Origin: a virus | Length of the DNA: 23,471 nt | IMG/VR virus record: IMGVR_UViG_3300020469_000271 | Location: 1-23,471 of that record | Direction: 5' to 3' (one strand) | Part shown: positions 6,112 to 23,291 of the stretch, one piece after another | Layout of the letters: each line of letters starts with the position of its first letter | Position numbering within the stretch: position 1 is the first letter of the stretch | The notes under the pieces: model-generated | Told to the model about the DNA's origin: nothing | Databases searched by the model: none | Seen by the model: the letters and a program-made list of their open reading frames with translations, nothing else | Program-made: the position numbers and the translations under genes

Positions 6112-6134
6112 TTAGTTATACTTTCCAATAATCT

Positions 6135-6163: not shown

Positions 6164-6176
6164 TATAGTGTACAAT
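6148..6176 (+). promoter_or_regulatory. Divergent sigma70-like promoter, antisense to the 147-aa gene
   Basis: On the plus strand TTGACA (6148-6153), 17 bp and TACAAT (6171-6176) form a near-consensus promoter. It overlaps the gp55 promoter head-to-head through the palindromic -35 region. It would fire into the 3' end of the gene at 6191-6634 on the antisense strand. Activity is inferred. Confidence 0.45.
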
Positions 6177-6190
6177 ATGACTGTAAGGAA

Positions 6191-8093: not shown

Positions 8094-8127
8094 TTTGACT
8101 TAAGTCACTATATTATATAGTGTATCA

Positions 8128-8798: not shown

Positions 8799-9015
8799 TT
8801 TCTTCCCAATCTCCTAGGATTTTTACTGTTTGACGATCAACGTCGTCCATAGTCCTTAATATTTTACCATCAATCCACATTTTATGCAACCATTCTATAA
8901 AACCTGTAACTAAAAAGGAGATAGGAAAGCGTTGTTTCTTTGCCCACCTCTTAGATTTAGTATACCAGTTATCTTTACCACCCCAATAATGTTCAAATTT
9001 GTATTCAAACTTCAT
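8614..9015 (-). CDS. Conserved hypothetical protein, 133 aa, 3' end doubtful
   Basis: Starts at an ATG overlapping the preceding stop (ATGA). The first 90 residues look like a real folded protein: FEHYWGGKDNWYTKSKRWAK, then FPISFLVTGFIEWLHKMW, then DDVDRQTVKILGDWEEN. The last third (IVERGTDSTSTG, RLQEDEGDQGRTES) is low-complexity and overlaps the 81-aa ORF by 185 nt. Either the two genes overlap deeply, or a frame change joins them. T4-like cyanophages have conserved small genes at this site, including candidates for tail completion gp3, but no homology to gp3 is visible here. Confidence 0.6.
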   Translation of the reverse strand: MKFEYKFEHYWGGKDNWYTKSKRWAKKQRFPISFLVTGFIEWLHKMWIDGKILRTMDDVDRQTVKILGDWEENDRQSTPHIVETGVLGDESWSIEITNPIVERGTDSTSTGMVTGSDAQRLQEDEGDQGRTES

Positions 9016-9563
9016 CGTCTTGTCTGAGTGTTAACGTTTCTTATCTCATAAAGTAGATATTGGAACGTCACACTAGCAGTAAGAAACTCACTGTCGGTTG
9101 TTGTTACATTAAAATCTAGTGTACTAAGTTGTGTAGGAAACAGATCCTTAAACACTACATCAAAATTTGCAATATTATTATTATTTAAAACTTGTAGAGT
9201 ACCATCAGAAACTTTAAAGTCCTGACTACCTACTACATCACTATTGTTATTTACCCATTCTCTTCGTTCTTGTATAGTATCAGGTGTACCTAATGCACGA
9301 ATCCAATTGTGTAACTCCATATAGTTTCTTAAGTCTTCATCAACAATAAAATCTATGTTTAATGTAGAGTATTGGATATTACCTTCTAATGGAACTGATA
9401 CGAATCCTCGTGTAGGTATTGCAATATCACCTAAAGTAAGTTCGGGTATGGATGCTCTCTGACACAAAAAAGATGCCTTCTTTGCTTTATCTAATAGGAA
9501 AACAAATCCTATAGGAGACAAGAAGTTCTTATTTGTTAGTTGGTCTTTATACCAGTTAGACAT
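9012..9563 (-). CDS. gp19-like tail protein (tail tube fold paralogue)
   Basis: A 183-aa protein. It shares the plan of the tail tube protein at 17339-17947: an N-terminal strand region, CQRASIPELTLGDIAIPTRG (34-53) matching the tube's ANLPATQLGTVEVPYRGR, then LNIDFIVDEDLRNYMELHNW (69-88) corresponding to ITIMNDKNFKLRDGFEKW. The gp19 fold recurs in tail tube and in baseplate/tube-initiator proteins such as gp54, so this is probably a minor tail or tube-end component. Which one cannot be told. It starts right after the oxygenase gene and is coupled to the next gene by ATGA. Confidence 0.7.
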   Translation of the reverse strand: MSNWYKDQLTNKNFLSPIGFVFLLDKAKKASFLCQRASIPELTLGDIAIPTRGFVSVPLEGNIQYSTLNIDFIVDEDLRNYMELHNWIRALGTPDTIQERREWVNNNSDVVGSQDFKVSDGTLQVLNNNNIANFDVVFKDLFPTQLSTLDFNVTTTDSEFLTASVTFQYLLYEIRNVNTQTRR

Positions 9564-9564
9564 T

Positions 9565-10155
9565 TTATGCGTTTATATTTTCTAACCATGATGTAGATAT
9601 GTATTTCTCACCTGACAGTGGAGGATTACCTCTATGCACATGAGTAAACCCTGCTGGCCATATCAAAAATTGACCTCTTCTAGGTTTGTATCTTATGGAT
9701 TGATATAGAAATTCAGTTTCACCACCATCATCAACATCATTAAGGTACATCATTGTTGCAAGTATACGTCGATTAGTTCCTAAAGAACCATCTTCTGAAT
9801 GCCATGCATGATACCCTTCACTAGGAAGTGTTCTTTGTACATTCAAATATACCTGTTGGTATCTAAAATGTAATAGATGTTCAAATTTATCAATGTATTC
9901 TTCAAGACATCTACCAGTAACTTCATTATATTGTTTCATGTACACATAACCTGCGTTATGATCTACCATGAAATCTTCTGTGGCAAGACATGTATCTTTA
10001 CGAGCATGTGCTTTGCGTTCTCTACCGAATAAACCTTTACGTTTAAATGTAGATCCAATCTTGTTTTGATAGTTCCAATAGTCAATCAACGGTTGAGTAT
10101 CATATTCCGTATCAAAGATACCTATGAACCCATCATATCTAATGTCAGTAATCAT
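9565..10155 (-). CDS. 2OG-Fe(II) oxygenase, prolyl 4-hydroxylase-like
   Basis: A 196-aa enzyme of the P4H-like double-stranded beta-helix family. Proposed iron ligands are H119 and E121 (HAWHSEDG, an HxE version of the usual HxD) and H172 or H174 (GFTHVHRG). K184 (GEKYISTSW) would bind the 2-oxoglutarate carboxylate. FLIWPAGFTH and MMYLNDVDDGGETEF are typical of this family. Such oxygenases are common in marine T4-like phages. Substrates are generally unknown, with virion or host protein prolines as one possibility. A CTAAATA late box lies 20 nt upstream, suggesting late expression with the following tail gene. Confidence 0.88.
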   Translation of the reverse strand: MITDIRYDGFIGIFDTEYDTQPLIDYWNYQNKIGSTFKRKGLFGRERKAHARKDTCLATEDFMVDHNAGYVYMKQYNEVTGRCLEEYIDKFEHLLHFRYQQVYLNVQRTLPSEGYHAWHSEDGSLGTNRRILATMMYLNDVDDGGETEFLYQSIRYKPRRGQFLIWPAGFTHVHRGNPPLSGEKYISTSWLENINA

Positions 10156-10175
10156 ATTAAAGAGTCATACAATCC

Positions 10176-10182
10176 TATTTAG
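10176..10182 (-). promoter_or_regulatory. Late promoter box (CTAAATA) for the oxygenase/tail genes
   Basis: GCTAAATA on the minus strand, 20 nt upstream of the oxygenase ATG and overlapping the end of the preceding gene. It matches the variant seen before gp19, gp20 and the gp67-like gene. Confidence 0.5.
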
Positions 10183-10463
10183 CACTGGTCTGATGTACTC
10201 ATTGAGTCAACTAAAAAATCTACACACCCCTTATAATCAGTATGATAACTAGGATAGGTAAAATCTTGTTTAGGTTCCTCTTGCATTACGATGTATTTTC
10301 TTTCATCAAGAACTTCATTGATGAGATCTTTTAATTCTGCCTTCAATGCATCTGATAAAAGATTCATTTGTTTCGTCTCTAAAGGTGGTATGGCAGCATG
10401 TTGCTCTTCAATAGTTTTACCACTTTCTCCATTCCCGTAGGACATTCCTTGTGTGTTAATCAC
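10179..10463 (-). CDS. Hypothetical phage protein, about 94 aa, GTG start preferred
   Basis: No family is recognised. The protein has a Gln/Met-rich N-terminus, a helical middle (NLLSDALKAELKDLINEVLDERKYIV) and an acidic C-terminus. Two starts are possible. ATG at 10493 lacks a ribosome site. GTG at 10463 has GGAGG four bases upstream and overlaps the previous stop as GTGATTAA, the same arrangement as ATGATTAA between uvsW and the next gene. I prefer GTG. The upstream 100-aa gene would be coupled to it. Confidence 0.6.
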   Translation of the reverse strand: MINTQGMSYGNGESGKTIEEQHAAIPPLETKQMNLLSDALKAELKDLINEVLDERKYIVMQEEPKQDFTYPSYHTDYKGCVDFLVDSMSTSDQC

Positions 10464-10758
10464 GTTGCCTCCAATCATCTGATTTGTTGTCATTGCGGAA
10501 CCAGTCTGCTATGTCATCTGCTCCACCGAAACCCCTTTTATGTTTACTTGAATCGGGGTTTCCAATATCCAAGTACTTAAGAAAACTTGAGTCATCGTCC
10601 CTTTTTAATCTTCTTGCTGAACTCAGCATACCTCTTGCGGACGTATTTGCTTTTGCTAATTTCTCTGCCCATATCATATCGTCTAAACTTACTTCTTGTT
10701 CTGCTGCGATTGCTTTACATATGCCTTCTAATCGAAGGCGATACTGGGTAGATAACAT
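10456..10758 (-). CDS. Conserved T4-like cyanophage protein, 100 aa
   Basis: A 100-aa charged protein with MLSTQYRLRLEGICKAIA (1-18), VSLDDMIWAEKLAKANTSAR (23-42) and a C-terminal DDIADWF ... SDDWRQRD. This pattern is one I recall from the gene that follows gp23 in T4-like cyanophages. Function is unknown. It is the first gene downstream of the sigma70-type promoter at 10991-11018 and would carry the hairpin-rich leader at 10811-10984. A GATAAATA late-type box also sits 23 nt before the ATG, so it may be expressed at two stages. Confidence 0.75.
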   Translation of the reverse strand: MLSTQYRLRLEGICKAIAAEQEVSLDDMIWAEKLAKANTSARGMLSSARRLKRDDDSSFLKYLDIGNPDSSKHKRGFGGADDIADWFRNDNKSDDWRQRD

Positions 10759-10781
10759 ATGCTAATATTGTATATTATTTT

Positions 10782-10789
10782 TATTTATC
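10782..10789 (-). promoter_or_regulatory. Late promoter-like box (GATAAATA)
   Basis: GATAAATA on the minus strand, 23 nt before the 100-aa gene. It differs from T4 TATAAATA only in the first base. Confidence 0.45.
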
Positions 10790-10810
10790 ATCTCCGAAAT
10801 AATAGGGGAG

Positions 10811-10984
10811 GTTGGGTTTCTGTATACCAACAAAAGATGGGCATTACTACAGAGTAAATACATCTTTGCCTGAGACCCGACTGGTAAGTCGATTCACCTC
10901 TCGGTGCAGCACCACCTGTGTCTCATCACCTTAACTAGCGGTTGCCAGTAAGTTTATTCAGTCACTCCCGACGTTGCGTCCAAC
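10811..10984 (-). ncRNA. Hairpin-rich structured RNA or leader, unidentified
   Basis: No ORF. The minus strand can form a chain of helices: 10970-10980 (GACG/CGTC), 10930-10952 (CTTA plus CTGGC/GCTAG with a one-base bulge), a three-way junction closed by TGAGAC/GTCTCA (10871-10876 with 10920-10925) enclosing CACC-GAGA-GGTG (10895-10906, a GNRA loop on this strand) and CGACT/AGTCG (10878-10891), then AAAGATG/CATCTTT (10833-10839 with 10861-10867) around TTACT/AGTAA, and GTTGG/CCAAC (10811-10831). Transcription from the promoter at 10991-11018 would begin right at its 5' edge. It could be a riboswitch-like leader of the 100-aa gene or a separate small RNA. I do not recognise the class. Confidence 0.45.
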
Positions 10985-10990
10985 AAATAT

Positions 10991-11018
10991 ATTATAGCAT
11001 AAAAAAAGAGGGTGTCAA
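10991..11018 (-). promoter_or_regulatory. Sigma70-like promoter embedded in terminator, copy 1
   Basis: TTGACA (11013-11018), 16 bp, TATAAT (10991-10996) with extended TGC on the minus strand. The -35 covers four loop bases and the first two bases of the 3' stem of the terminator at 11001-11028. Drives the structured leader and the 100-aa gene. Confidence 0.75.
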
Positions 11019-11028
11019 GCACCCTCTT
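11001..11028 (-). terminator. Intrinsic terminator after the 334-aa ORF
   Basis: On the minus strand AAGAGGGTG, loop CTTGA, CACCCTCTT (perfect 9-bp stem), continuing into a run of seven T. Orientation fits termination of the 334-aa ORF message. Confidence 0.85.
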
Positions 11029-11043
11029 AAAAGATAAGCATTT

Positions 11044-12048
11044 TTACTTAATAGCAAAAACTCTATTTAATGAAGTAACCTGTTGATCTTTCCACTTAAA
11101 TGCAACCTTATCCCAATTTTTACCAAGTTTAGATCCTTTTTCATCACGCATATATTTGTCTATCCAATAGCAAGCATAAGATACAGTTCTATTTAATCCA
11201 TCAGCATTAAACCAACTTGTACCTTTAGATTTAAATATATTGGCATTTGTCCATTCCCAACATATGTGAGAAATACCATCCCACTCTCCACCTTTTGTAT
11301 TGAATGCTCTTTGGTCTATATCCTTCAACCCTTCAATAAGTTTGTCATTACAACATCCATATTTTTTAAGAGACATTAATGCAGTGCAAACAAGTGCTTG
11401 ATCCCAGTTAGAAGCAGTAGTAATTATTTCATCAAGTGCTTTTATTTCTTCTAAGAATGCACCAACTTGACCTGGAATTTCGGATGGTTTAACATTAAGT
11501 TGATTCCATGTTTCTGGAAAAAAGAAATGACATGCCTTATTTAATCCTGTAAGAATTTGTCCTTTCATTAATTTATCTGATACTGGAGTATAATTATACA
11601 TTCCAGAAAGAATACCATATACTTTTTCTTGATTTCTTTCAACACTATCTGGTGAATCGAATGTATTATATGACTCTCGTATACGTTCTATACTATCAAA
11701 TGAATATTCAATTACAAATACTTTTTCTGGAATAGCATCAGATCCACCTCTACTCCAATTTAATGCTCTAGTATTGGAATCAATTCTCCATACTTTTCCT
11801 GCTTTATATTTCTTTCCAAAAACTGTGTCTGGTTTAGTAAGTCTAGCAACGAATACCACTACATGCTCTGGCAGTAATGTTGATAAATGTTTTTGTGCTT
11901 TATTTAATCTTCCCTCTGTATTTCTCTGGCAGAATACTTCATCTAATTCTGCAAAATCATTATAGTTCATCCAATATGAATTGATGATATTACTATTATG
12001 GTATGGTTTGAAGGGTACTATATCCCCATCGTTTCTATAAACTGGCAT
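11044..12048 (-). CDS. ParB/sulfiredoxin-like domain protein in a self-contained cassette
   Basis: A 334-aa protein of unknown role. Residues 82-145 contain VWRIDSNTRALNW (86-98), then AIPEKVFVIEYSFDSIERI and NTFDSPDSVERNQEKV. This resembles the ParB-N/Srx fold, whose motif is DGxTR followed by a strand and an NxxDSxxxVE-type segment, as in some phage and transposon ParB-like proteins. The C-terminal half (160-334) is helical with scattered cysteines and matches nothing I know. The start has AGAGGT five bases before ATG. The gene is bracketed by two identical terminator/promoter elements and interrupts the usual gp23-to-next-gene order, so it looks like an acquired cassette. Confidence 0.75.
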   Translation of the reverse strand: MPVYRNDGDIVPFKPYHNSNIINSYWMNYNDFAELDEVFCQRNTEGRLNKAQKHLSTLLPEHVVVFVARLTKPDTVFGKKYKAGKVWRIDSNTRALNWSRGGSDAIPEKVFVIEYSFDSIERIRESYNTFDSPDSVERNQEKVYGILSGMYNYTPVSDKLMKGQILTGLNKACHFFFPETWNQLNVKPSEIPGQVGAFLEEIKALDEIITTASNWDQALVCTALMSLKKYGCCNDKLIEGLKDIDQRAFNTKGGEWDGISHICWEWTNANIFKSKGTSWFNADGLNRTVSYACYWIDKYMRDEKGSKLGKNWDKVAFKWKDQQVTSLNRVFAIK

Positions 12049-12108
12049 TTTTACCTCTGTGTATAAACTAAAACACTTCCCAAAAGGAGGGTTGTGCGAG
12101 ACAACTAT

Positions 12109-12136
12109 ATTATAGCATAAAAAAAGAGGGTGTCAA
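12109..12136 (-). promoter_or_regulatory. Sigma70-like promoter embedded in terminator, copy 2
   Basis: TTGACA (12131-12136), 16 bp, TATAAT (12109-12114) with extended TGC. Drives the 334-aa ORF after the gp23 terminator. Confidence 0.75.
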
Positions 12137-12146
12137 GCACCCTCTT
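12119..12146 (-). terminator. Intrinsic terminator of gp23
   Basis: Perfect 9-bp stem AAGAGGGTG/CACCCTCTT, five-base loop and a seven-T run on the minus strand, beginning 22 bp after the gp23 stop. It separates the late capsid message from the genes that follow. Confidence 0.87.
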
Positions 12147-12168
12147 AAAAGATAAGCAATATTGCCTA

Positions 12169-13542
12169 TTACATTAGGTTTGCAACCTGTACTCTTCTGT
12201 AGTACTTATTAGCATTAGCAGTAAGTGCGCCAGAACCTTGAGTAAGTCCGCCTGAGAATGGGTTAGATACCATACCGTAACGAGTCTTGAAACCAATTTT
12301 TGGTTGGAAGGTGTCAGGGTTGATTGCTCTAACTTGCTGTAACGGAACGTAAGGACAGTAGAATAATCCTGCGTCGTAAGGTGAAGTACCTTTGTATCCT
12401 GCAACATAGAAGTGCTTGTCTGCTACGTTTGCTGAATATGGGTCAACATAAACCTTGATTCTTCCGTTGAGTGTACCAACTAGAGTTGAAGAAGTATCGT
12501 CTACACCTGTTAGAGGGTTGTTACCCTGTAAACCTGGAGCGTAGTCTAGAACTCCTGCCATTCCTAGTGCTGATGCAACGTCTGCTGAACAGATTAGAAT
12601 GTTGCCCTTCCCGCGACGAGTTTGCTGACCGATAGCGTTAGCGTCTCTTTCTATCTGGAATAATAGTCCTTTGAATTTCTCAACTGACCATCTACCATTA
12701 GAGTCAACGTCTAGGTCGAAGATACCTGCAGTAGAAGTATTGTTCTGTGCACCTTTTACAGCGTTTGTGTAAATGGTTCTAACAACTTCTCTGTTGATTT
12801 CTGCAAGGATCTCTGTTGACAGAATGTTTGACAACTCTTGCTCGGCATCAAGACCATGAATCGCTTTCAAGTCTTGAGCTAGTTCGATGCTGTACTCTGC
12901 CTTTAGTGCTCTTGCTCTAGCAGTAACAGTGACTTTCTCGATTGAGAAACCCATTTCTCTGAACGCAGTGTTAGATGAACTATCGTCTAGTCCTTCAACT
13001 GCTGCTGTTGTCATACCAGTAGCATCTGCTGTCTGCTCGTAAGTACCTGCAGAGGCATCGTTAAGAACAGCAGGGTTGTTACCTTCTGCGTCGTTTGTTG
13101 CGTCGGATGCGCCAGGATCGTATGCACCTGGACCTCCAGAGAAACCTGCGTTTGGCTCGTCGAAGAATGCTTCGTCGTAACCTGATGCGTTTGGATCTCT
13201 TTCAGAACCGTAGTTAGTTCTCATCGCAAAGATAAGTCCTGTAGGACCTGTCATTGGTTGAACACCTGCGATATCGTAGGCGATCAATTGAGGCATTGAA
13301 CGTCTGATTAGAGAGATCAGTACAGGGTCGAAACCTGCTACTGGACCTGTTGCGGTTGAACCGCCAGTGTATCCAGTTGTTTGTAGAGTCTCAGAAAGGA
13401 TTTGTCCTTCTTCGATCTGTGCTTTTTCTTGGTTTTCAAGTAGTTGTGCGACTACGCCTTTCTTATAGTTATCACTAATCTCTGGGAGAGCATCGTGATT
13501 CAGAACGGGTGCCCACTTCTCTTGTAGTTTTTGAACAGTCAT
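12169..13542 (-). CDS. 23: gp23, major capsid protein
   Basis: A 457-aa HK97-fold capsid protein of the T4 gp23 family, shorter than T4 (521 aa) as is usual in marine relatives. Characteristic are RRSMPQLIAYDIAGVQPMTGPTGLIFAMR (about 79-107), MGFSIEKVTVTARARALKAEYSIELAQDLKAIHGLD and NREVVRTIYTNA. The C-terminus has YVPLQQVRAINPDTFQPKIGFKTRYGMV, also typical. An N-terminal propeptide is expected to be removed by gp21; the exact site is not certain, though the acidic AQIEEG near residue 41-46 fits the gp21 preference. RBS AGGAGA sits 11 bases upstream. No clear late box lies in the 41-bp gap after gp22, so it may be cotranscribed with gp22. Confidence 0.96.
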   Translation of the reverse strand: MTVQKLQEKWAPVLNHDALPEISDNYKKGVVAQLLENQEKAQIEEGQILSETLQTTGYTGGSTATGPVAGFDPVLISLIRRSMPQLIAYDIAGVQPMTGPTGLIFAMRTNYGSERDPNASGYDEAFFDEPNAGFSGGPGAYDPGASDATNDAEGNNPAVLNDASAGTYEQTADATGMTTAAVEGLDDSSSNTAFREMGFSIEKVTVTARARALKAEYSIELAQDLKAIHGLDAEQELSNILSTEILAEINREVVRTIYTNAVKGAQNNTSTAGIFDLDVDSNGRWSVEKFKGLLFQIERDANAIGQQTRRGKGNILICSADVASALGMAGVLDYAPGLQGNNPLTGVDDTSSTLVGTLNGRIKVYVDPYSANVADKHFYVAGYKGTSPYDAGLFYCPYVPLQQVRAINPDTFQPKIGFKTRYGMVSNPFSGGLTQGSGALTANANKYYRRVQVANLM

Positions 13543-13583
13543 TTGCTGTTTATTCTCCTTTTAGAAGTAGTAATTTTGTTTAA

Positions 13584-14621
13584 TTATTTGGACCATCGAG
13601 CGATTGCATCGACATACTTAGACATCGTGCCACTCTCTGTGCTTTCGACAAGGGGTTGTGTTCCATCTTCGGTGGGTTCCTTCGCTTGTTCAGCGATCTC
13701 AGCCTTCCTAGTGAAGTATGATTCCTTTATCGTTTCGATCTTCTTACGAAAATCTTCTTCATTTTCAAACTCAACACCCTCTGCTAATGATGCTAACTTC
13801 TCCTTTTGGGTTTCTGCTAGTCCAGTAGCGCATTCGTTCACAATTTCCATTTTAACAAACTCGCCAATTCTCTTATTTAAAGATACATTGGATTCGACTG
13901 TTTCGTTGAGTTTCTTTTCCATTTCATCTATCTCTCCAACCATACCGTCAAGTAGATTGAATTTTTCCTCAGGCACACTGAAGTTGTGCTCTAAGAAAAG
14001 GGTTTTTAGACCATTGAAGAATGATTCACTCATCTCAGTCTTAATACCGTGCTCAACTTGGAGACTATTCTCTTTCATCCAAGTTTCTGCAGCATAAGAT
14101 AAGTAGTCATCAACCTTCTCGGCTAATTCTGTTTTGACCTTCTCTACTTCTTCCTGTAGAGTAGATTCAAATGCTTCTTGCAACGCTTTTACTTCGCTGT
14201 TCACTTTTTCTGTGACCACTGCCTCGAAGATAGTTATTGCTTTTGCTCTGAATTCTTCTGATAATTCTTCACCAGAGACAAGAGCGTCAACATCTTGACT
14301 AAAGTCGTACTTGGTTTCAGTGATTGCTTCTTCTTCACTTTCTGCGTCCTCCATTTTAGCGGATGCTGAACTAGGTTTAGTAGATAAGGATTTAGAACCT
14401 TCATGCTTTACTGCACCTGCAGCAGACGCACCTGCGTTCTTAGTACCTTTTGCACCTTCTTCTGAATCAGTATTAACATCGATAACTTTTGCAGCACCAC
14501 CTTTCGATGTATCGATTGGCATGCCAGGTTTAGCGTCTTTGTTAACCGCAGTTTTAGATTGGGTAGTGCCTTCGGTCACTTTTTCCATATCATCAAGATT
14601 TTTTTCGAGGGTCTCAGCCAT
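13584..14621 (-). CDS. 22: gp22, prohead scaffolding core protein
   Basis: A 345-aa, highly charged, Glu/Lys/Ala-rich protein, larger than T4 gp22 (269 aa). The N-terminal 110 residues are low-complexity (Ser/Ala/Gly/Lys). Residues about 110-320 are long helical coiled-coil stretches such as ALQEAFESTLQEEVEKVKTE and EIDEMEKKLNETVES. gp22 forms the inner core around which gp23 assembles and is then cut to peptides by gp21. It sits between gp21 and gp23 as in T4 and has a perfect TATAAATA late box upstream. Confidence 0.88.
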   Translation of the reverse strand: MAETLEKNLDDMEKVTEGTTQSKTAVNKDAKPGMPIDTSKGGAAKVIDVNTDSEEGAKGTKNAGASAAGAVKHEGSKSLSTKPSSASAKMEDAESEEEAITETKYDFSQDVDALVSGEELSEEFRAKAITIFEAVVTEKVNSEVKALQEAFESTLQEEVEKVKTELAEKVDDYLSYAAETWMKENSLQVEHGIKTEMSESFFNGLKTLFLEHNFSVPEEKFNLLDGMVGEIDEMEKKLNETVESNVSLNKRIGEFVKMEIVNECATGLAETQKEKLASLAEGVEFENEEDFRKKIETIKESYFTRKAEIAEQAKEPTEDGTQPLVESTESGTMSKYVDAIARWSK

Positions 14622-14659
14622 TGTTTGAACTCCGTTTTGCTTTAAGCGTTGTCTGTATT

Positions 14660-14667
14660 TATTTATA
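14660..14667 (-). promoter_or_regulatory. Late promoter (TATAAATA) for gp22-gp23
   Basis: Exact T4 late consensus on the minus strand in the 48-bp gp21-gp22 gap, 38 nt before the gp22 ATG. Confidence 0.75.
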
Positions 14668-14669
14668 AA

Positions 14670-15317
14670 TCATAAACTCTTCAAAAACTGTTCAAACGCG
14701 GAGACTTTGCGTTCTTGTAAGTTAATGAGGGTTGCTTGATCTATTTCTTGCTTGATTTGAGCAACTGCAGACTCTTTAAGTATGCCATTATCCCAAATCC
14801 ACTCCTTTCCTTCCATGATACCATCCACAAATGCGTCAGGTGCTGAAGGATCTGCTACTATATCAGCAGCAGTAGCGAGCATAAAGTCATCCATAACAAC
14901 ATTACAGTTCTCTTCCTTACGGATTGAACCCATGCCACGGGATGATACTCCTAATTTTACGCCCTCGTCTAGCAATGACTTGGCGATTTTACCTGATGGT
15001 GTATCAAGTAATTTTGCTCTACCAATAAAGTTATTACCCTCTTCTTTCAAAGAAAGTATTTTGTGTGACACACGATCCAAGTTAATGGATGGTCCGTCAG
15101 GATGACCTAGTTCTCCAAGGGCACGCCCTTTTTGAATGTAGTTCTCGCTATATTTAGTGACTTCATTTTGTAAAGTCTTAAATGGATACATTCTGTTGTT
15201 ACGGTTTTTTAGTTCCGCTTGCAAGAATACCCCTTCAATGAAGTAACTCTTCTTGCCATCTTTCTCTTCAGCGAGAAAGTCAACAGTTGTAATTTCTTCA
15301 GCGATCAGTCTCATCAT
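14670..15317 (-). CDS. 21: gp21, prohead maturation protease
   Basis: A 215-aa protease (T4 gp21: 212 aa) of the herpesvirus assemblin-like type. The proposed catalytic histidine is H72 in GELGHPDG and the nucleophile is S125 or S126 in LGVSSRGMGS. The N-terminal NRNNRMYPFKTL and the later ADIVADPSAPDAFV are characteristic. It digests the scaffold and trims gp23 during head maturation. The ATG (GAGG seven bases before it) lies 20 nt inside the end of the gp67-like gene, so the two are coupled. Confidence 0.93.
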   Translation of the reverse strand: MMRLIAEEITTVDFLAEEKDGKKSYFIEGVFLQAELKNRNNRMYPFKTLQNEVTKYSENYIQKGRALGELGHPDGPSINLDRVSHKILSLKEEGNNFIGRAKLLDTPSGKIAKSLLDEGVKLGVSSRGMGSIRKEENCNVVMDDFMLATAADIVADPSAPDAFVDGIMEGKEWIWDNGILKESAVAQIKQEIDQATLINLQERKVSAFEQFLKSL

Positions 15318-15648
15318 TCGGTACCTCTATTGGTTCTTGTTCGGCAGAAGGTGGATCAATAGATGAAGGTGCTGTGTCAACAGGTTCATCTTCTGGAGTT
15401 TCTACATTACCTTGAGTTGGTTCTGCAGGTTCTTCAGTACCGTCAGGTAGTTTATCTGCAATTTCATCTGCAGCATCCTGTGCGGTATCATCCAATTCAA
15501 ATCCCATAGTTTTAGCAAACTCAACTTTCCTTGCTTGGATCGCATCGTATGCTTTTGCTGCTAAAGCATCTTGAACTGAATCAACTGCTTTTGCTTTATC
15601 GTCGCCAAAGATCTGATCAACGATTTGTTTTGCTTGGTCACTTGCCAT
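15298..15648 (-). CDS. 67: gp67-like prohead core protein
   Basis: A 116-aa protein. The helical N-terminal half includes ALAAKAYDAIQARKVEFAKTMGF (29-51), which resembles the T4 gp67 stretch AMAARTIDLI followed by EEKIA-AR. The C-terminal half is an acidic Glu/Asp/Pro tail, also as in gp67 (80 aa, acidic). gp67 is a minor component of the prohead core and is cleaved by gp21. The position between portal and protease is the T4 position of gp67/gp68. The name rests on this short motif, composition and synteny. Confidence 0.72.
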   Translation of the reverse strand: MASDQAKQIVDQIFGDDKAKAVDSVQDALAAKAYDAIQARKVEFAKTMGFELDDTAQDAADEIADKLPDGTEEPAEPTQGNVETPEDEPVDTAPSSIDPPSAEQEPIEVPNDETDR

Positions 15649-15667
15649 AATAACTCCTACTGTATAC

Positions 15668-15674
15668 TATTTAG
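15668..15674 (-). promoter_or_regulatory. Late promoter box (CTAAATA) for the gp67-like gene
   Basis: GCTAAATA on the minus strand, 19 nt before the ATG and beside the portal stop. The Shine-Dalgarno sequence TAGGAG lies between it and the start codon. Confidence 0.55.
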
Positions 15675-15677
15675 CAT

Positions 15678-17285
15678 TTAGATCTCCCCTCTGCGTGCGT
15701 CGCTAGGGTCAACCTGCGGAGCATCACCATTTGGTGCTGCTTCTACCCCTTCTGGAGGGGCCGCGTTAGGATCCATAGATGGATCCATTTCTGCTGATGG
15801 ATCAGGTATAACACCAGATTCAAGTTCAGATTCAATTTGTTTGTCAATGTCGGCAATCTCGTGTGCAGTTTGTTTGAGGACCTGAGTTCTGATATACTCC
15901 ACTGAGAAGTATTTACCAACATAAGGGTCCATTACATTAACTTGATTCATCCTTTCGTTACGGATCTCAATCTCCTTGAGTTCTGTAAAGTAGTTGTCAG
16001 CAATGTAATCATATTGGATATGTTCTTTCATATCCTCCCACTCTTCAAGTGATATAACACCTTTTAGAATGAGTTGTGTCTTTAAAAGATCATGGAATAG
16101 TTCACTAAATCTCTTGCGGAGACGTGAAATAAACTTCTGAAACTTAACTTCATCTCTAGTTATTTCCGCAGCACGACCTATGTTAAAGGTAGTTTCTGTT
16201 TCTAACCTTGAGGATGGAACGTTGAGTGCCTTGTAAAGTTTCTTCTGGAAGTATTTGACGTCCTCAAGTTCTCCAAGATTTTGTCCACCTGGGAGCGTAG
16301 TGATTTCAGTGCCTCGTCCCCCTTCTCGTCTGGGTAACCAGAAGTCTTCGAGCATTGACATGAACTTCTTGTCATCTTTAATTTCTCCTGTGTTTGCATC
16401 ATACACTAACTTGTTACGGTATCTACCCATAACTTCACGAAGGTATTGCTCCGCTTTGTTCTTAGGTAAGTTACCAACATCAATGTAAAATATTCTACGT
16501 TCTGGAGCTCTTGATAATCTATAGATTACCAAAGAGTCTTCAATCATACGCAGTTGGTTAACTGCCTTGATTGCTTTGTGTAGGTGCGATAGCACCATGT
16601 TTTTATTGAGATCCTGTATACCAGAATGACAATATGAAATAGAATCAGGTGCAATTTTAATACCCTGATTACTAGCATTCTTCAATCCTTTTGCATTGTA
16701 TAGGTAATACGATGCAGAAGATGTCATTAATTGTTGGTTAAGATCTACTTTGCCTTGAAGTTGTTGAGGTTTTTTTGCCTCATACTCCGTAACCTTTCTG
16801 ATCTTACGAGGGTCAATATATCTTATTTCGTTTAAACCTGCCTTGGGGTTAGCGGGATCGATTACTTTATGATAATAAAGTCTACCATCAACATACCAAC
16901 GACGGAAGATTTCATACGATCTATTGTCAAAGTCGAGAAGACGGAGTATTTCATCAAACTCCTCTCGCATTAACTTTTTAATTTTATCTGATACTCTGAG
17001 ATTTGATAACTCTAGTTCGACTGGTACGTCGTCAAAGTTACCACATATCGTTTCATTAACGACATCATCTACAGCACTATCACATTCTGGTTGGAGAACC
17101 ATCTCTCTATAACGAGTGATAAGTTCATATTCATTACGAATAGTCCCATCCATATCAATTGAGTACCCATAGTACCCGCCCCCAACGATAGGTTGAGAGC
17201 CATCCATACTATCCTTTTGAACAAAAGAAGGTCCCTTAGGAACCTTCTTTGCTCTCTGGAGTGAAAATCCGAAGAGTTGAGACAT
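15678..17285 (-). CDS. 20: gp20, portal vertex protein
   Basis: A 535-aa portal protein (T4 gp20: 524 aa). It begins MSQLFGFSLQRAKK and carries the hallmarks of the family: YREMVLQPECDSAVDDVVNE, FDDVPVELELSNL, VDGRLYYHKVID, then DSISYCHSGI, LRMIEDSLVIYRLSRAPERR and YRNKLVYDANTGEIKDDKK. FWLPRREGGRGTEITTLPGG and AEITRDEVKFQKFI follow. The C-terminal 50 residues are an acidic Pro/Asp/Glu tail. It forms the dodecameric ring for DNA entry and nucleates head assembly. It follows gp19 with its own late box. Confidence 0.96.
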   Translation of the reverse strand: MSQLFGFSLQRAKKVPKGPSFVQKDSMDGSQPIVGGGYYGYSIDMDGTIRNEYELITRYREMVLQPECDSAVDDVVNETICGNFDDVPVELELSNLRVSDKIKKLMREEFDEILRLLDFDNRSYEIFRRWYVDGRLYYHKVIDPANPKAGLNEIRYIDPRKIRKVTEYEAKKPQQLQGKVDLNQQLMTSSASYYLYNAKGLKNASNQGIKIAPDSISYCHSGIQDLNKNMVLSHLHKAIKAVNQLRMIEDSLVIYRLSRAPERRIFYIDVGNLPKNKAEQYLREVMGRYRNKLVYDANTGEIKDDKKFMSMLEDFWLPRREGGRGTEITTLPGGQNLGELEDVKYFQKKLYKALNVPSSRLETETTFNIGRAAEITRDEVKFQKFISRLRKRFSELFHDLLKTQLILKGVISLEEWEDMKEHIQYDYIADNYFTELKEIEIRNERMNQVNVMDPYVGKYFSVEYIRTQVLKQTAHEIADIDKQIESELESGVIPDPSAEMDPSMDPNAAPPEGVEAAPNGDAPQVDPSDARRGEI

Positions 17286-17316
17286 TTAATTTACTAGTCT
17301 GTTATTAGTCCTACCT

Positions 17317-17323
17317 TATTTAG
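17317..17323 (-). promoter_or_regulatory. Late promoter box (CTAAATA) for gp20
   Basis: CCTAAATA on the minus strand in the 53-bp gp19-gp20 gap, 31 nt before the portal ATG. Confidence 0.6.
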
Positions 17324-17338
17324 GCACTTTGTGGAAAC

Positions 17339-17947
17339 TTATTTTCCAGGTCCTCTGAGAGCAACTTCCCAGTATTGTACTTGCATCTCTACAGTGAACT
17401 CTTCGATTGCATCATTGCTTCCGAAGTCTAGGTCAATAGCGGAGATATTTGTTGGGAATACATCAACAAATCTGTATGCTCTTAGTGGTGCATGTGGTGT
17501 ACCTGACGCACTCTGACTTGTTGAACTTGTTGACTGAGTTGTAGGTGACGATGCATTTCTATCTAACTGAGTTACGAACATGTCAGCAAAGTAGTTATTA
17601 ATATTTGTACCTGCTGAAGTAACGTTCTGACTGTATGCTTGGATAGATTCAGTCCACTTCTCAAACCCATCTCTTAGTTTGAAGTTCTTGTCGTTCATTA
17701 TAGTGATTGTCCAAGGTTCAAAGGTGCGGTCTCCTGCAATCTTTAAAACTCTTCCTCTATAAGGAACTTCAACTGTACCTAACTGTGTTGCAGGAAGGTT
17801 CGCTGCTTTCACTGTAAACTTACCCAGTTCTGTTAGAGTAGTTCCGTTGGCAACAGTCGCTTCTGGGAAGTTCAAAGTACACTCAAACAGATTAGGTCTT
17901 GCGAAATCTGTAGCGACCTTTGATTTAAATTCTGAAATACTTGACAT
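17339..17947 (-). CDS. 19: gp19, tail tube protein
   Basis: A 202-aa protein of the T4 gp19 family (T4: 163 aa; marine relatives are longer). Key stretches are FTVKAANLPATQLGTVEVPYRGR (44-66) and FEPWTITIMNDKNFKLRDGFEKW (76-98). DVFPTNISAIDLDFGS and IEEFTVEMQVQYWEV follow near the C-terminus. A Ser/Thr-rich insert (about 131-149) distinguishes it from T4. It stacks as hexameric rings to form the inner tube within the gp18 sheath. Its late promoter box lies in the loop of a hairpin after gp18. Confidence 0.93.
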   Translation of the reverse strand: MSSISEFKSKVATDFARPNLFECTLNFPEATVANGTTLTELGKFTVKAANLPATQLGTVEVPYRGRVLKIAGDRTFEPWTITIMNDKNFKLRDGFEKWTESIQAYSQNVTSAGTNINNYFADMFVTQLDRNASSPTTQSTSSTSQSASGTPHAPLRAYRFVDVFPTNISAIDLDFGSNDAIEEFTVEMQVQYWEVALRGPGK

Positions 17948-17961
17948 GTTAAAATCTCAAT

Positions 17962-18002
17962 AAAATACGCCTTGTCCTATTATTTAGAACAAAGCGTATT
18001 TT
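17962..18002 (-). terminator. Gp18 terminator hairpin with late promoter in its loop
   Basis: On the minus strand AAAATACGC, T, TTGT pairs with ACAA, G, GCGTATTTT: 14 bp with one U-G pair. The pair would be a C-A mismatch on the plus strand, which supports RNA from the minus strand. The 13-base loop holds CTAAATA (17981-17987). The U-run after the stem is short, so termination may be partial. Confidence 0.7.
17981..17987 (-). promoter_or_regulatory. Late promoter box (CTAAATA) for gp19
   Basis: TCTAAATA on the minus strand, 33 nt before the gp19 ATG, entirely within the loop of the hairpin at 17962-18002. Confidence 0.6.
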
Positions 18003-18021
18003 CAGAGCTTATTTTCTCTTA

Positions 18022-20265
18022 TTAGTTAGCAACTTCCGTGAACGCGACACCTGTACGAGTAGCGACGAAGGTTAGAGTAATGTAGTTAATAGTCCTTGTT
18101 GGTTTAACATAGATCTCTGCATTGAACTCTCCTCTGTCTACTGACTCAGGTGGGTTATTGCTTTCATCACACTTGACTAAGAAGTCTGTAACTCCTCTAC
18201 GTCCTTGTACATCACGGAGATATGGTTCGACAATGTTAAGGAAGAATCCTCTTTGTGTCTCATCATTCTGCTCGAATAGTTGTGACTTAGCAGCACCAGA
18301 GATTACTCTCTCGATTGTTAGGAATAGACGTCTTACATTGATTCTATCAAATGCAGATGCAAATCCTTGAGCTGTCTTATCACCGAATAGTACGATACCT
18401 TGACCTGGGAATGAAACAACTGGGTTGATTCTAGCAGAGTATAGTCTATCACGCTGTGTCTTGTTAGGTGTGTATGCTAGTTTGATAGCGTTTCTAACAA
18501 TTCCTCTTTGGAATCCTGCAGGTGAGAACCATGGTTCTGCAACTTCAGTTGTTTGTAAACATAGACCTGCTATGTCACCGTTACATGGAACGTATCTGTA
18601 TACATCATTGTACTTGTCATAGATGTATTTGTATCCAGAATCAAATACGATGTAAGAACTTGAAGGTAACTGATCAAAGAATGAGATTAGATTATCTGTC
18701 TGTGTTGCTGCACTTGATACACCGATTAAGTTTCCTCTTCTTGGTGATACAAATAACATACAGTCTCTTCTCTCATCTACGATTGCTGCTAGTGCAGTAA
18801 TCTTGGCAAGTGCTGCTGCATCGTCTGCACCAGATGGACCAGTTAGAATAAAGTCGATTGTCTGTGACTCAGGATCTTCTAGTAAACTGTAACCTGTAGT
18901 TACGTCACCTTGTGAAACTGTGTAACTACCACCAGAGTTTGCATAATCAACACCGTTGATTAGTCTGTAGTAGTATGTTGAGTTTCCTTTAGAACCTATA
19001 GTTGTGTCACCTGCAGGATAATTTGTTGAACCTGCTGAACTTAACAGTAGATCGAATGATGTAGTTCCTACTAATCCGAATGTACCAGTACCACTGTCTA
19101 CATCAAATAGACCTGTTTCGTGCTCACCCCAGTAAACGTATTCAGATTTCTGCTGAATAACTTCAACGTAGAAGTTTGTTTCTCCTACAGATGATTTAGC
19201 ATCGGATGCTTTTGATACTCCGACATATCTCTCAAGTAATGTTCCTGCATTACCTGTGATCTTACCGTCTACATCAATAACCAAGATGTGCATCTCATCT
19301 CTGAATCCACCATTGGCAGATGCATAAGATGAAGTTCCTGGTCTAGGAGCAACGTTTACCCACTTCTGTGTAGGTAGATACTCTCTTTCATCATACTCAA
19401 CTCTTACTGAACTGATTGCAACAGCAGTAGAGTTTGTATCTGTTATGCTATCTGCTGCAGCAAAGTCGATACTTCCTTTATCTTTAACAATATATACTCT
19501 TCTTTCGATACCACCAGTTCCGATTACAGCAGTGTTAGAACCTTGAGTAACAGTCTGACCATCAGCAATGATACCAGTAATACCACCAGAAGGCATTCCA
19601 ATTTCAATCTTTCCTGCTGCTGAGTCGTATGCTAATACGTTAACTGTTTGTGCAGAACCAGAAATACTGATTGTAGTTGTTGTTCCAGGAACGAATGATC
19701 CTACAACAGATCCAACTGTTAATAATACACTATACTTAAAGACCTTACCCGCAGCACCAGATGTAGCACTTAGTGCTTCAGTTGCAACGAACTCATGATC
19801 GTTACCAGATCCAGGAGCAGGGACAACAGCAATCTGATCAGCACCTGCGTCTGTGACGAAGATTCCGATTGAGTTTCCTTTAGCACCAGGGGTTCTTGCT
19901 GCCCACTTCCATGAGTTAGAACCGTTTAGGTATGTTGTTTCGTAGTCTTGTAAGTTTTTAATCTTAACTGCAGTACCTGTATTAACTGCATTCTTTAAGT
20001 TTGTGCTATCTACACGAACTGTTTTTAGTACTCCACCGTATGATAGGAACTGCGCTGCAGTATACCAATATTCATAGTTGTACTCGTTTGGTTCACCGAA
20101 AGTTGCTACAAGTTCTCTTTCTGAACCAATGTCCTTTATTTCCTCGACAGGACCTAGTTCAAAAGGTGCTGCAATTACCCCCGTGTTAGCGGTGGATAAA
20201 GTGGTAATAGTGGTCAGATCTCTTTCCTGTATAACAACTCCAGGACTGGATTGATTAGCTGCCAT
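18022..20265 (-). CDS. 18: gp18, contractile tail sheath protein
   Basis: A 747-aa sheath protein (T4 gp18: 659 aa). The start MAANQSSPGVVIQERDLTTI and the following GVIAAPFELGPVEEI, LVATFGEP and YWYTAAQFLSYGG are typical of sheath N-termini. The C-terminal domain contains PCNGDIAGLC, EPWFSPAGFQRG, LAYTPNKTQRDRLYSARINPVVSFPGQGIVLFG, FDRINVRRLFLTIERVI and AEIYVKPTRTINYITLTF, all conserved in contractile sheaths. The middle (about 140-470) is rich in Gly/Ser/Thr and variable, as expected for surface domains. RBS AAGGAG precedes the start. Confidence 0.97.
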   Translation of the reverse strand: MAANQSSPGVVIQERDLTTITTLSTANTGVIAAPFELGPVEEIKDIGSERELVATFGEPNEYNYEYWYTAAQFLSYGGVLKTVRVDSTNLKNAVNTGTAVKIKNLQDYETTYLNGSNSWKWAARTPGAKGNSIGIFVTDAGADQIAVVPAPGSGNDHEFVATEALSATSGAAGKVFKYSVLLTVGSVVGSFVPGTTTTISISGSAQTVNVLAYDSAAGKIEIGMPSGGITGIIADGQTVTQGSNTAVIGTGGIERRVYIVKDKGSIDFAAADSITDTNSTAVAISSVRVEYDEREYLPTQKWVNVAPRPGTSSYASANGGFRDEMHILVIDVDGKITGNAGTLLERYVGVSKASDAKSSVGETNFYVEVIQQKSEYVYWGEHETGLFDVDSGTGTFGLVGTTSFDLLLSSAGSTNYPAGDTTIGSKGNSTYYYRLINGVDYANSGGSYTVSQGDVTTGYSLLEDPESQTIDFILTGPSGADDAAALAKITALAAIVDERRDCMLFVSPRRGNLIGVSSAATQTDNLISFFDQLPSSSYIVFDSGYKYIYDKYNDVYRYVPCNGDIAGLCLQTTEVAEPWFSPAGFQRGIVRNAIKLAYTPNKTQRDRLYSARINPVVSFPGQGIVLFGDKTAQGFASAFDRINVRRLFLTIERVISGAAKSQLFEQNDETQRGFFLNIVEPYLRDVQGRRGVTDFLVKCDESNNPPESVDRGEFNAEIYVKPTRTINYITLTFVATRTGVAFTEVAN

Positions 20266-20312
20266 GTTAAATTTCTCCTTGGTAGGTCCGTAAATTCTGG
20301 TTGTCTATAAGA

Positions 20313-20320
20313 TATTTATA
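20313..20320 (-). promoter_or_regulatory. Late promoter (TATAAATA) for gp18
   Basis: Exact T4 late consensus on the minus strand in the 66-bp gp17-gp18 gap, 47 nt before the gp18 ATG. Confidence 0.75.
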
Positions 20321-20331: not shown

Positions 20332-21984
20332 CTATCTATAGTCCCACATGTAAGATTTATCTCCATACTCCGCGACTTTCCAGACATCGCCCTGTGCGTC
20401 TTTGAATTGCTCTTCTCCCATACCATCATCTACGAACCCAAAAGGTGCCATATCCTGTTCTATTGACTCTCTTTGATCATCAAAAATCCGCGCACGAACA
20501 TCGTTGTCATGCATCTCTTTAAAGAATGGTTGCATTGCCATCCATCCAAATATAACTAAACACATTGCTAGGTCATCATTACATCCATCTTCCGCTTGGA
20601 ATGTAGAACCTTTTGCTATAAATGTAGTTAGTTCTGCTATCATATCATAGTCTGGTATTATAAGTTTATCTTCTTCTATCAATGCCTTTAAGTTAGAACA
20701 CCCAACTTGCTTAGTGGCAGTTGACATCTTAAGACCTAGTTGTGTCTTCTTACCAGAAAATCCTTGTCCAAGTTGTTGCCCTGCTCTACCACGCATAGAT
20801 GCCATAAGTAAGTTTTCATACTCTAGATCATACTGTATAATATCTGCTACCTGCCCACCAATATCATTTACTTCACATAAGATATATGCTTGATTAAAAT
20901 TCTTTGCTACATCTACAATTAAGTTAGGTAGGACAATAGGTTTGATCTCATTGTTCTTATATCTTGCTACTACTTCATATGGTACAGTGCTTGTGTCTAT
21001 CACAACGAATGCGGAATAGTCATGACCTACACCACGAGATACGTCTACAGTAACGACATACTCATGATCTTCCTCTCTGTTCTTATATAATGCTAGTCCT
21101 CTATTAGTCTTAATAGGATCATGGTATGCCATAGTCCTTAACTTACTTGGAGTTATTAGTGTATCAACAGAGCCCAGGAACTCACATTCAAACTCAACTT
21201 TAAACTGTGCCTCTGATGTGTTCTTAATAGTTTGTTCTTTCCAAACCTCGTCTCTACCAGGGACTTGTGACCAATGAACCTCAGTTGGGACATACTCATT
21301 TTGTTTACGCTCTGCATCATGCCAGAGTTTGTAAAACATGTTCATCCCATGAGGGGTTGATATAATAATAACTTTAGTATTCTTACCAGATGAAATTGTT
21401 GGATAAACAGAACTGAAAAACTGATCAGCGATATGATTCGGAACGAAAGCGAATTCGTCCAGAAATATAACGTTAAAGGACATACCGCGAACAGCACTAG
21501 CAGAAGTAGAAGCAGCGAGGATTTTACTCCCGTTTTCCAGTTCGAGTGACCCTTTGTTCCATCCGAGAATACCCTGTTGCAACCATTTAGGGAGATTCTC
21601 ATAAGATAGTTGGAGGCGGCCCAACATTTCTCTTGCAGTTGCTGCTTTGTTTGCGAGGATTGCGACATTTACATTGTCATTGAATAGTACATACCATAGT
21701 AGATATGCTGTAACGATAGTAGATTTACCTGACTGACGAGGTAACTTTGCTATGTTGAATCTTTCTGCATGAAAACTTTCTACCATACTCTCTTGAAAGT
21801 CATACATTTTAAATGGTATGATACCTTCATCAAGAGATACGATCTTGATATACTTTCGGATAAAGTAAACAGGATTTTCTGCACACTTCAAGAACTCAGC
21901 AATCTGTTTCTTAGTAAACTTTTGAGAAACATTTGCCTTTTTTAAATTGGGGTTACCAAGATATAGTTCTTGTTTTACTGCCAT
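20332..21984 (-). CDS. 17: gp17, large terminase (packaging ATPase/nuclease)
   Basis: A 550-aa protein (T4 gp17: 610 aa). The ATPase domain has Walker A LPRQSGKST (81-89), Walker B VIFLDEF (172-178) and coupling motif IISTPHG (207-213). The RNase H-like nuclease domain has acidic residues D314 (VDVSRG), E371 (CEVNDIGG) and D470/D471 (CNDDLAM). It cuts concatemeric DNA and drives it into the prohead through gp20. Its start codon shares the A of the previous stop (TAATG), giving tight coupling. Confidence 0.97.
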   Translation of the reverse strand: MAVKQELYLGNPNLKKANVSQKFTKKQIAEFLKCAENPVYFIRKYIKIVSLDEGIIPFKMYDFQESMVESFHAERFNIAKLPRQSGKSTIVTAYLLWYVLFNDNVNVAILANKAATAREMLGRLQLSYENLPKWLQQGILGWNKGSLELENGSKILAASTSASAVRGMSFNVIFLDEFAFVPNHIADQFFSSVYPTISSGKNTKVIIISTPHGMNMFYKLWHDAERKQNEYVPTEVHWSQVPGRDEVWKEQTIKNTSEAQFKVEFECEFLGSVDTLITPSKLRTMAYHDPIKTNRGLALYKNREEDHEYVVTVDVSRGVGHDYSAFVVIDTSTVPYEVVARYKNNEIKPIVLPNLIVDVAKNFNQAYILCEVNDIGGQVADIIQYDLEYENLLMASMRGRAGQQLGQGFSGKKTQLGLKMSTATKQVGCSNLKALIEEDKLIIPDYDMIAELTTFIAKGSTFQAEDGCNDDLAMCLVIFGWMAMQPFFKEMHDNDVRARIFDDQRESIEQDMAPFGFVDDGMGEEQFKDAQGDVWKVAEYGDKSYMWDYR

Positions 21985-22196
21985 TACTGTCCTTTAATTA
22001 AGAAATGTTTTTTGATGACAGTTACTTGATCTTCGTACTTAGCAATCATGTTGAGTTCGGTTTCGATTGCTTCCATGATATCTGAGTGCTCACCTATTCC
22101 AACAGGGTTGTTTAAGTAAACTTCTACATTCATTTTGTGTTTCTGTATATCTCCTTGAGCATGAGCAAGAAGAGCAGCGACCATTTTTTCTCTCAT
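21984..22196 (-). CDS. Small conserved protein next to terminase, 70 aa
   Basis: A 70-aa helical protein (MREKMVAALLAHAQGDIQKH, then VEVYLNNPVGIGEHSDIMEAIETELNMIAKYEDQV). I recall near-identical small proteins in many marine T4-like phages, with no assigned role. It sits where T4 has gp16, the small terminase, but is far shorter than gp16 (164 aa), so that identity is not supported. It is coupled at both ends: its ATG overlaps the reductase stop and its TAA overlaps the gp17 ATG. A CTAAATA box lies 33 nt upstream. Confidence 0.8.
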   Translation of the reverse strand: MREKMVAALLAHAQGDIQKHKMNVEVYLNNPVGIGEHSDIMEAIETELNMIAKYEDQVTVIKKHFLIKGQ

Positions 22197-22876
22197 AGTT
22201 TGGGTTTGTCAAATAGTACATTCTGTATATATTTAGTTGCCCACGAATTATCAAACCATTGGGATAATACTGCTTCAGTTTTCTTATTTTTCATCTGTGA
22301 TGTGCAGTACCATAACTGATCATCATACCTTCTCATAGTCTTTTGCCACCTAGTTTCTTTCTCTGCTGTCCTTACTATGTGACAGAATACTTCTAGGTAA
22401 TCACTGCATAGTAATAGAAACTTATCATATTCATCTGTATCCAATCTTTGAAACCTACACCATGGTGAAAATATCTCACCCCACTCTGGCAAGTTTCTAG
22501 TTTTCTTAAAATTATATTTTATATTACCAAGATTATAGTTCACCTCATATACTGGTGATACATCAACTATAGCAGCAGTTACATTACCACCTGCCTGTAC
22601 TATATCACATCCAAAGATAGGTATAGGATAGTATGGATCTGGGAATAAAACACAATGAAGTATTTCTATCTTACCAGTAGTTGCCCTTTCTACATGTAAC
22701 TTTCTTAAACCAGGGCACTGCCACATGTGATTATAGATGGATACATTACCTGCATGTACCTCATCATAATCTGAAACAAGTTCTTCTATTTTAGATAGTC
22801 TAGTAATCTTTGATCTGATTAGAGATTCTAAATCAGAGCAGAGTCCCGAAACTACGTCTAATTTCACGGAGTGCAT
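22193..22876 (-). CDS. Ferredoxin-dependent bilin reductase (PcyA/PcyX type)
   Basis: A 227-aa enzyme that reduces biliverdin to a phycobilin using ferredoxin. LRKLHVERATTGKIEILHCV (59-76), PIFGCDIVQAGGNVTAAIVDVSP (86-108), PEWGEIFSPWCRF (130-142) and QLWYCTSQMKNKKTEAVL (187-204) match the PcyA family closely. E63, H74 and D91 line up with the PcyA catalytic Glu76, His88 and Asp105 (H-to-D spacing 17 in both). At the PcyA Asp220 position this protein has K199. Overall it fits PcyA (phycocyanobilin) or the phage enzyme PcyX (phycoerythrobilin), and sequence alone does not choose. The ATG overlaps the thermonuclease by 44 nt, so the exact start is uncertain. No heme oxygenase gene is in the window. 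Confidence 0.9.
   Translation of the reverse strand: MHSVKLDVVSGLCSDLESLIRSKITRLSKIEELVSDYDEVHAGNVSIYNHMWQCPGLRKLHVERATTGKIEILHCVLFPDPYYPIPIFGCDIVQAGGNVTAAIVDVSPVYEVNYNLGNIKYNFKKTRNLPEWGEIFSPWCRFQRLDTDEYDKFLLLCSDYLEVFCHIVRTAEKETRWQKTMRRYDDQLWYCTSQMKNKKTEAVLSQWFDNSWATKYIQNVLFDKPKL
22230..22236 (-). promoter_or_regulatory. Possible late promoter box (CTAAATA) before the terminase pair
   Basis: ACTAAATA on the minus strand inside the 3' end of the bilin reductase gene, 33 nt before the 70-aa gene. Same motif and spacing as the other late boxes, but within coding sequence. Confidence 0.4.
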
Positions 22877-23291
22877 CTAAGTCCATATTTTTTGTACCTC
22901 CATCATATGCATGAGCATATCCTTCAGTAATCATCGTTTCATTGAGCGATATCTCTGAATCGCCAATGTACAACCAACCAAGCAAACGACCATACTTACC
23001 AACCCCACCTTTAAGTTCAGTTCGTATAGTGAGTTCATCATCTCCATCAATAGCACCCTCAAGTTTTTCTTTCATCCAGTTTGTAGCATCTATTCCCAAT
23101 GCCTTTTCTTCCAAGTTCCTTGTTCTTTTCTCTGGCGTATCAACTCCTGCAATTCTAACTCTTTCTTTCTTGTATAGATCAAACCCAAGATCAATGGTAA
23201 CGTCAATAGTATCGCCATCAACTACCCTGTTTATTTCCGTCACTCGGAAGTTGTAACAACTCTTCCTGCTTGGGGGTATCATTGCTCCCAT
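22833..23291 (-). CDS. Thermonuclease (SNase-like)
   Basis: A 152-aa staphylococcal-nuclease-like protein. INRVVDGDTIDVTIDLGF (20-37), VRIAGVDTPE (45-54) and GKYGRLLGW (98-106) contain the expected metal and catalytic residues D25/D27, R46, D51, E54 and R102. No signal peptide is seen, so it acts inside the cell, perhaps in host DNA breakdown or repair. The ATG at 23291 has GGAG seven bases upstream; an alternative ATG at 23282 is too close to its GGGAG. It overlaps the small membrane ORF upstream by 74 nt and the bilin reductase downstream by 44 nt. Confidence 0.92.
   Translation of the reverse strand: MGAMIPPSRKSCYNFRVTEINRVVDGDTIDVTIDLGFDLYKKERVRIAGVDTPEKRTRNLEEKALGIDATNWMKEKLEGAIDGDDELTIRTELKGGVGKYGRLLGWLYIGDSEISLNETMITEGYAHAYDGGTKNMDLDALREIRRSFGTLL

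Follow-up and report, generated by a model that had tools for sequence, protein, structure and literature searches.

Introduction

Phage genes for phycocyanobilin:ferredoxin oxidoreductase (PcyA) have been known since the early cyanophage genomes. The gene examined here lies in a viral DNA of 23,471 nucleotides, the whole of which was analyzed and is referred to below as the window. The closest described counterparts are the pcyA genes of P-RSM4 and S-TIM4 (Thaumasvirus stim4), whose products are 81% identical to the window protein over the full length. P-RSM4 also shares with the window the order SNase gene, pcyA, small ORF, and gp17, a 44-nt overlap, and a lysine at the position of Asp220 (numbering of Synechocystis PcyA), but it differs in the terminase and sheath backbone. 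The window gp17 is nearer to those of P-RSM1 (91% identical) and metaG-MbCM1 (90%) than to that of P-RSM4 (84%). P-RSM1 and metaG-MbCM1 are the nearest phages in backbone and have pcyA in the same slot with the same overlap, but their PcyA proteins are 56% and 55% identical to that of the window, respectively, and both have threonine at position 220; that of MbCM1 additionally has glutamine at His88. The PcyA of P-SSM4 has Glu76, His88, Asp105, and the same lysine as the window protein, but it is only 46% identical, and its gene lies between a peptidase gene and cobS rather than at gp17.

The cyanobacterial enzymes from Synechocystis, Synechococcus, and Prochlorococcus have the fold (Z ∼31) and the catalytic trio of the window protein, whereas they are ∼40% identical to it, and they have Asp220 (60 of 60 sequences) and, in the rows examined, Arg223. 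PcyX of the pelagiphage type (PDB 5owg) belongs to the same superfamily and is likewise phage-borne, but it has aspartate in place of Glu76 and proline at position 220, is linked to heme oxygenase, and forms phycoerythrobilin. PcyX of the type found in pelagiphage Mosig is abundant; 194 stretches were matched in a single scan (viral contigs L101–L180).

Results

Identification of the Bilin Reductase. The reductase gene originally predicted at positions 22193–22876 is real. An intact open reading frame on the minus strand starts with ATG and encodes 227 amino acids that match PF05996 (Fe_bilin_red) with E = 5e-46 and 157.6 bits against a cutoff of 31, across profile positions 28–228 of 228. The product also matches phrog_7278 (E = 2e-88). 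When the window protein was used in tblastn, pcyA matches were obtained in 27 phage records, of which 26 are from cyanophages, and the best matches were the annotated genes of P-RSM4 and S-TIM4. The AlphaFold2 model (mean pLDDT 91.7) has the α/β/α sandwich fold of the ferredoxin-dependent bilin reductases (FDBRs). In structure matching the solved PcyA structures were the best matches (Z 30–32, rmsd 1.4–2.5), and PebB, HY2, PebA, PebS, and PcyX ranked below them (Z 19–26). The window gene encodes a ferredoxin-dependent bilin reductase, an ordinary cyanophage PcyA, and the PcyA-type assignment is supported by the retention of Glu76, by placement among the PcyAs in the phylogeny, and by the best structural matches. 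Cyanophage pcyA is an already known AMG family, to which the window adds an uncultured member.

Phylogeny, Product, and Host. A tree of PcyA sequences was constructed after removal of the Asp220 region. In this tree 22 cyanophage-type sequences, including that of the window, form one clade with support of 100/99. This clade joins the PcyAs of marine Synechococcus and Prochlorococcus with support of 97/94. The divergent PcyA of Sf-CH3 falls outside the cyanophage clade on a long branch, and a single phage clade was not rejected (p-AU 0.19). When all FDBRs were included, PebA, PebB, and PebS were found on a separate side from the PcyAs (support 100/99), and the identity of the window protein as a PebS was rejected on the basis of this separate clade.

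The rest of the window was found to be of cyanophage type. Cyanophages P-RSM1 and metaG-MbCM1 cover 73–75% of its DNA at ∼80% identity, and the entire stretch is DNA of a T4-like cyanophage (Kyanoviridae) with P-RSM1, MbCM1, and P-RSM4 as relatives. Two matches from bacterial assemblies were considered as non-cyanobacterial counterexamples and were rejected. One of them lies in a 188,235-bp contig of the Nonlabens xiamenensis draft (L037, NZ_RMVE01000006.1); over 6.7 kb this contig region shares 97.6% identity with cyanophage P-TIM40, which suggests contamination of the Bacteroidota assembly by a cyanophage genome. The other, in the gammaproteobacterial MAG SP107 (L038, PARM01000056.1), aligns with cyanophage ACG-2014j; its cyanophage-type PcyA groups with that of ACG-2014j, and the sequence is probably a misbinned phage contig.

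The original prediction had left the product (phycocyanobilin or phycoerythrobilin) and the host (a cyanobacterium or a heterotroph) undecided. Neither doubt is upheld. Glu76, a residue specific to PcyA, is present in the protein and distinguishes it from PcyX, the protein falls among the cyanophage PcyAs in the tree, and the gene is surrounded by T4-like cyanophage DNA. Because Glu76 is kept, the protein belongs to the cyanophage PcyA clade, and the backbone is that of a cyanophage, phycocyanobilin is the most likely product and a marine picocyanobacterium the most likely host.

It is highly improbable that the gene instead encodes a phycoerythrobilin synthase of the PcyX type from a phage of heterotrophs such as the pelagiphages. 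PcyX is of the same Pfam family and is carried by phages, a distant homologue of the window protein stands beside a heme oxygenase in Pelagibacter phage Mosig EXVC030M, and PcyX is found on a very long branch near the phage PcyAs in the tree of all FDBRs, from which the alphaproteobacterial PcyAs had been left out. However, this placement is a long-branch position in a tree of that composition, and for the placement of PcyX the AX clade was adopted as published (PMC10151467). The window protein is only 25% identical to PcyX, and position 76 is glutamate in the window protein versus aspartate in six of six PcyX sequences. Glu76 is reported to be specific to PcyA, to be absent from PcyX, and to be needed for reduction of the 18-vinyl group (PMC10151467), and Asp55 has been named as a catalytic residue specific to PcyX (PMC11480375). 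Cyanophages have been reported to be without PcyX (PMC13193486). PcyX is also linked to an adjacent heme oxygenase in a cassette, whereas the neighbors of the window gene are an SNase-like nuclease gene and a 70-residue ORF, and no heme oxygenase was found in the window. Membership in PcyX was therefore rejected on the basis of Glu76 and the cyanophage context, and a heterotrophic host on the basis of the backbone shared with P-RSM1 and MbCM1.

Catalytic Residues and the Lysine at Position 220. Alignment with PcyA from Synechocystis demonstrates that E63, H74, and D91 of the window protein correspond to Glu76, His88, and Asp105, and that K198 aligns with Asp220; all four residues had been assigned correctly from the sequence alone. 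In one paper on the mechanism of PcyA, Glu76, His88, and Asp105 are the residues named as essential and Asp220 is not among them (PMC9800206); in that paper and in PMC10151467 only these three are called critical, and Asp220 is not given as a defining residue of PcyA. In the AlphaFold2 model K198 occupies the turn that links two helices near the C-terminus (residues 177–195 and 198–207), which is where the second aspartate of the FDBRs sits (PMC6755814).

Asp220 was found in all 60 of the cyanobacterial PcyAs retrieved, and Arg223 in those examined at that position. By this residue the window protein falls outside the cyanobacterial (host-type) subgroup of PcyA, and most of the accepted cyanophage PcyAs resemble it in lacking Asp220. 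Lysine is found at this position in the close IMG/VR relatives of the window protein and in P-RSM4, P-TIM40, P-SSM3, P-SSM4, S-SSM4, P-SSM7, and P-RSM6, whereas the enzymes of ACG-2014j, Sf-CH3, and contigs L018–L022 have aspartate. Position 223 is Glu, Lys, or Leu in every sequence with Lys or Thr at position 220, and arginine goes with Asp220. The lysine is thus not private to the window; it is the common state in cyanophage PcyA, present in most of the sequences. The tree requires two changes between Asp and non-Asp at position 220, and a single origin was not rejected (p-AU 0.44), so the pattern rests on few events. The enzyme encoded by metaG-MbCM1 pcyA (L027:3989–4690) is naturally altered at two active-site positions, with Gln at His88 and Thr at Asp220.

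The PcyA assayed in 2008 was very probably that of P-SSM4, which we take to be the only phage with a genome published by then among the three pcyA-bearing phages tabulated in Sullivan et al. 2010. A passage of Sullivan et al. 2010 describes cyanophage pcyA as functional in vitro, citing Dammeyer 2008 (PMC3037559), and a passage of Baeuerle et al. 2026 describes the activity of phage PcyA as the same as that of the host enzyme, citing the same work (PMC13198022). Because the PcyA of P-SSM4 has this lysine and a cyanophage PcyA has been reported to function in vitro, Lys at position 220 is probably tolerated, i.e., it does not abolish activity. A literature search found neither an Asp220 mutant of PcyA nor a biochemical test of the window protein or its 81%-identical relatives.

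Incomplete reduction of the A-ring in enzymes with this lysine is possible. We consider it unlikely that the loss of Asp220 has changed the chemistry of the enzyme such that the D-ring vinyl step works while reduction of the A-ring is slower or relies on a different proton donor, with a two-electron intermediate released or held, or with a changed ratio of products. The invariance of Asp220 in the 60 cyanobacterial enzymes versus Lys or Thr in most of the cyanophage enzymes speaks for such a change, as does the switch of residue 223 together with residue 220, and the equivalent aspartate (Asp-219) is essential in PebB (PMC6755814), that in PebS being catalytically relevant. However, the counterpart in PebA is not essential, and both the reported activity of phage PcyA with the same lysine in P-SSM4 and the set of essential residues named for PcyA argue against it. 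A broader proposal, that cyanophage PcyAs constitute a subtype in which Asp220 (with Arg223) was exchanged for Lys or Thr under selection for the conditions of infection, such that proton delivery to the A-ring, and possibly the rate or the released product, would be unlike that of the host enzyme, is tentative and, in our judgment, rather doubtful.

Gene Neighborhood and Exchange of Alleles. The gene upstream of pcyA (22833–23291, minus strand) encodes an SNase-like endonuclease (T4-GC 228; PF00565, E = 1.2e-11; phrog_452), and the 5′ end of pcyA overlaps it by 44 nt. At the other end, the stop codon of pcyA overlaps by 4 nt (ATGA) a 70-residue ORF (21984–22196, minus strand; phrog_1811) whose counterparts carry the annotation T4-GC 227 (MbCM1) and 277 (P-RSM4). 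The large terminase subunit gene gp17 (20332–21984, minus strand; Terminase_6N, 4e-24; Terminase_6C, 2e-15) comes after this ORF, and the next gene is the tail sheath gene gp18 (18022–20265, minus strand), a backbone marker identified by tblastn to the annotated gp18 of the relatives. The predicted overlap with both neighbors is therefore confirmed. The order of nuclease, reductase, and terminase genes is also as predicted, but gp17 is not the direct neighbor of pcyA.

The description of pcyA as built into a conserved operon must be qualified: relatives keep the flanking order from the SNase gene to gp17, but they vary in what occupies the slot between these genes. The order SNase, pcyA, one or more small ORFs, and gp17, with the identical 44-nt overlap, is found in P-RSM4, P-RSM1, MbCM1, and those IMG/VR contigs that cover the site. 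In S-SSM5 and S-CAM8, gp17 directly follows the SNase gene and pcyA is absent from the slot. A single small ORF separates the SNase gene from gp17 in P-SSM7 and P-SSM3, which likewise have no pcyA at the slot. In P-RSM6, pebS and pcyA lie immediately upstream of the SNase gene, and in other phages pcyA is found at unrelated locations. The surrounding gene order is therefore conserved, and pcyA sits in it at an insertion point whose content varies. A PebS-type gene followed by a PcyA gene is found side by side in L020 and L018 (IMGVR_UViG_3300012952_001236 and IMGVR_UViG_3300020411_000827) as well as in P-RSM6 (L032).

In PcyA the window is nearer to P-RSM4 than to P-RSM1 and MbCM1, and in gp17 the reverse holds. 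The topologies of pcyA and gp17 were compared over shared taxa using the AU test. The gp17-type topology was rejected by the pcyA alignment (p-AU 0.001), and the pcyA topology was more weakly rejected by the gp17 alignment (p-AU 0.03); the gp18 and SNase alignments did not separate the two. Because the history of pcyA conflicts with that of gp17, the likeliest reading is that pcyA alleles have been exchanged between phages at the slot beside the terminase.

There is very little chance that pcyA is an inactive or decaying gene kept through its position. The lysine at position 220 and the faster change of amino acids in PcyA than in gp17 would fit decay. Against this, the frame is intact in the window and its relatives, the catalytic trio and the fold are retained, and the slot and overlap are preserved in phages of three named genera. 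The dN/dS ratio of the window pcyA versus the genes of L003, L005, and L013 was determined to be ∼0.2 at dS ∼0.5, and selection on pcyA is purifying.

Discussion

The window gene is a cyanophage pcyA AMG whose product most likely makes phycocyanobilin from host biliverdin with electrons from host ferredoxin. The search for heme oxygenase (PF01126) and 2Fe-2S ferredoxin (PF00111) that had been proposed as a check was carried out, and neither was found in the window, a fragment of its phage genome, or in the complete genomes of P-RSM4, S-TIM4, P-RSM1, and MbCM1; the control phage P-SSM2 was positive for both. Because the related phages have neither gene, the biliverdin IXα and the electrons used by the phage PcyA would most likely be supplied by the heme oxygenase and the ferredoxin of the host, respectively. 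The D-ring vinyl group would be reduced first, via Glu76/Asp105, followed by reduction of the A-ring and release of what is presumably phycocyanobilin; this four-electron conversion of biliverdin has been reported in vitro for cyanophage PcyA.

The overlaps are consistent with a single transcript for pcyA, the SNase-like nuclease gene, and gp17, and translation may be coupled through the overlapping gene ends. A private late promoter for pcyA was considered and rejected: the T4-type late motif ATAAATA is not found upstream of pcyA, and the six sites in the window (2948–20319, all on the minus, i.e., coding, strand) are no more than expected by chance. Sites are found 30–54 nt upstream of gp18, gp22, and ORF 10758. 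Matches in the window to σ70-like promoters and to terminators are near chance levels.

The gain to the phage from pcyA has been described as unexplained (PMC3037559); a sustained supply of chromophore and bilin signaling are candidate benefits. If pcyA is coexpressed with the packaging genes, bilin synthesis would occur late in infection, which bears on the purpose of the gene. The slot beside the terminase, with its apparent exchange of pcyA alleles between phage lineages, is a testable detail, and the Lys and Thr replacements of Asp220 provide natural sequences for the enzymology of the A-ring step.
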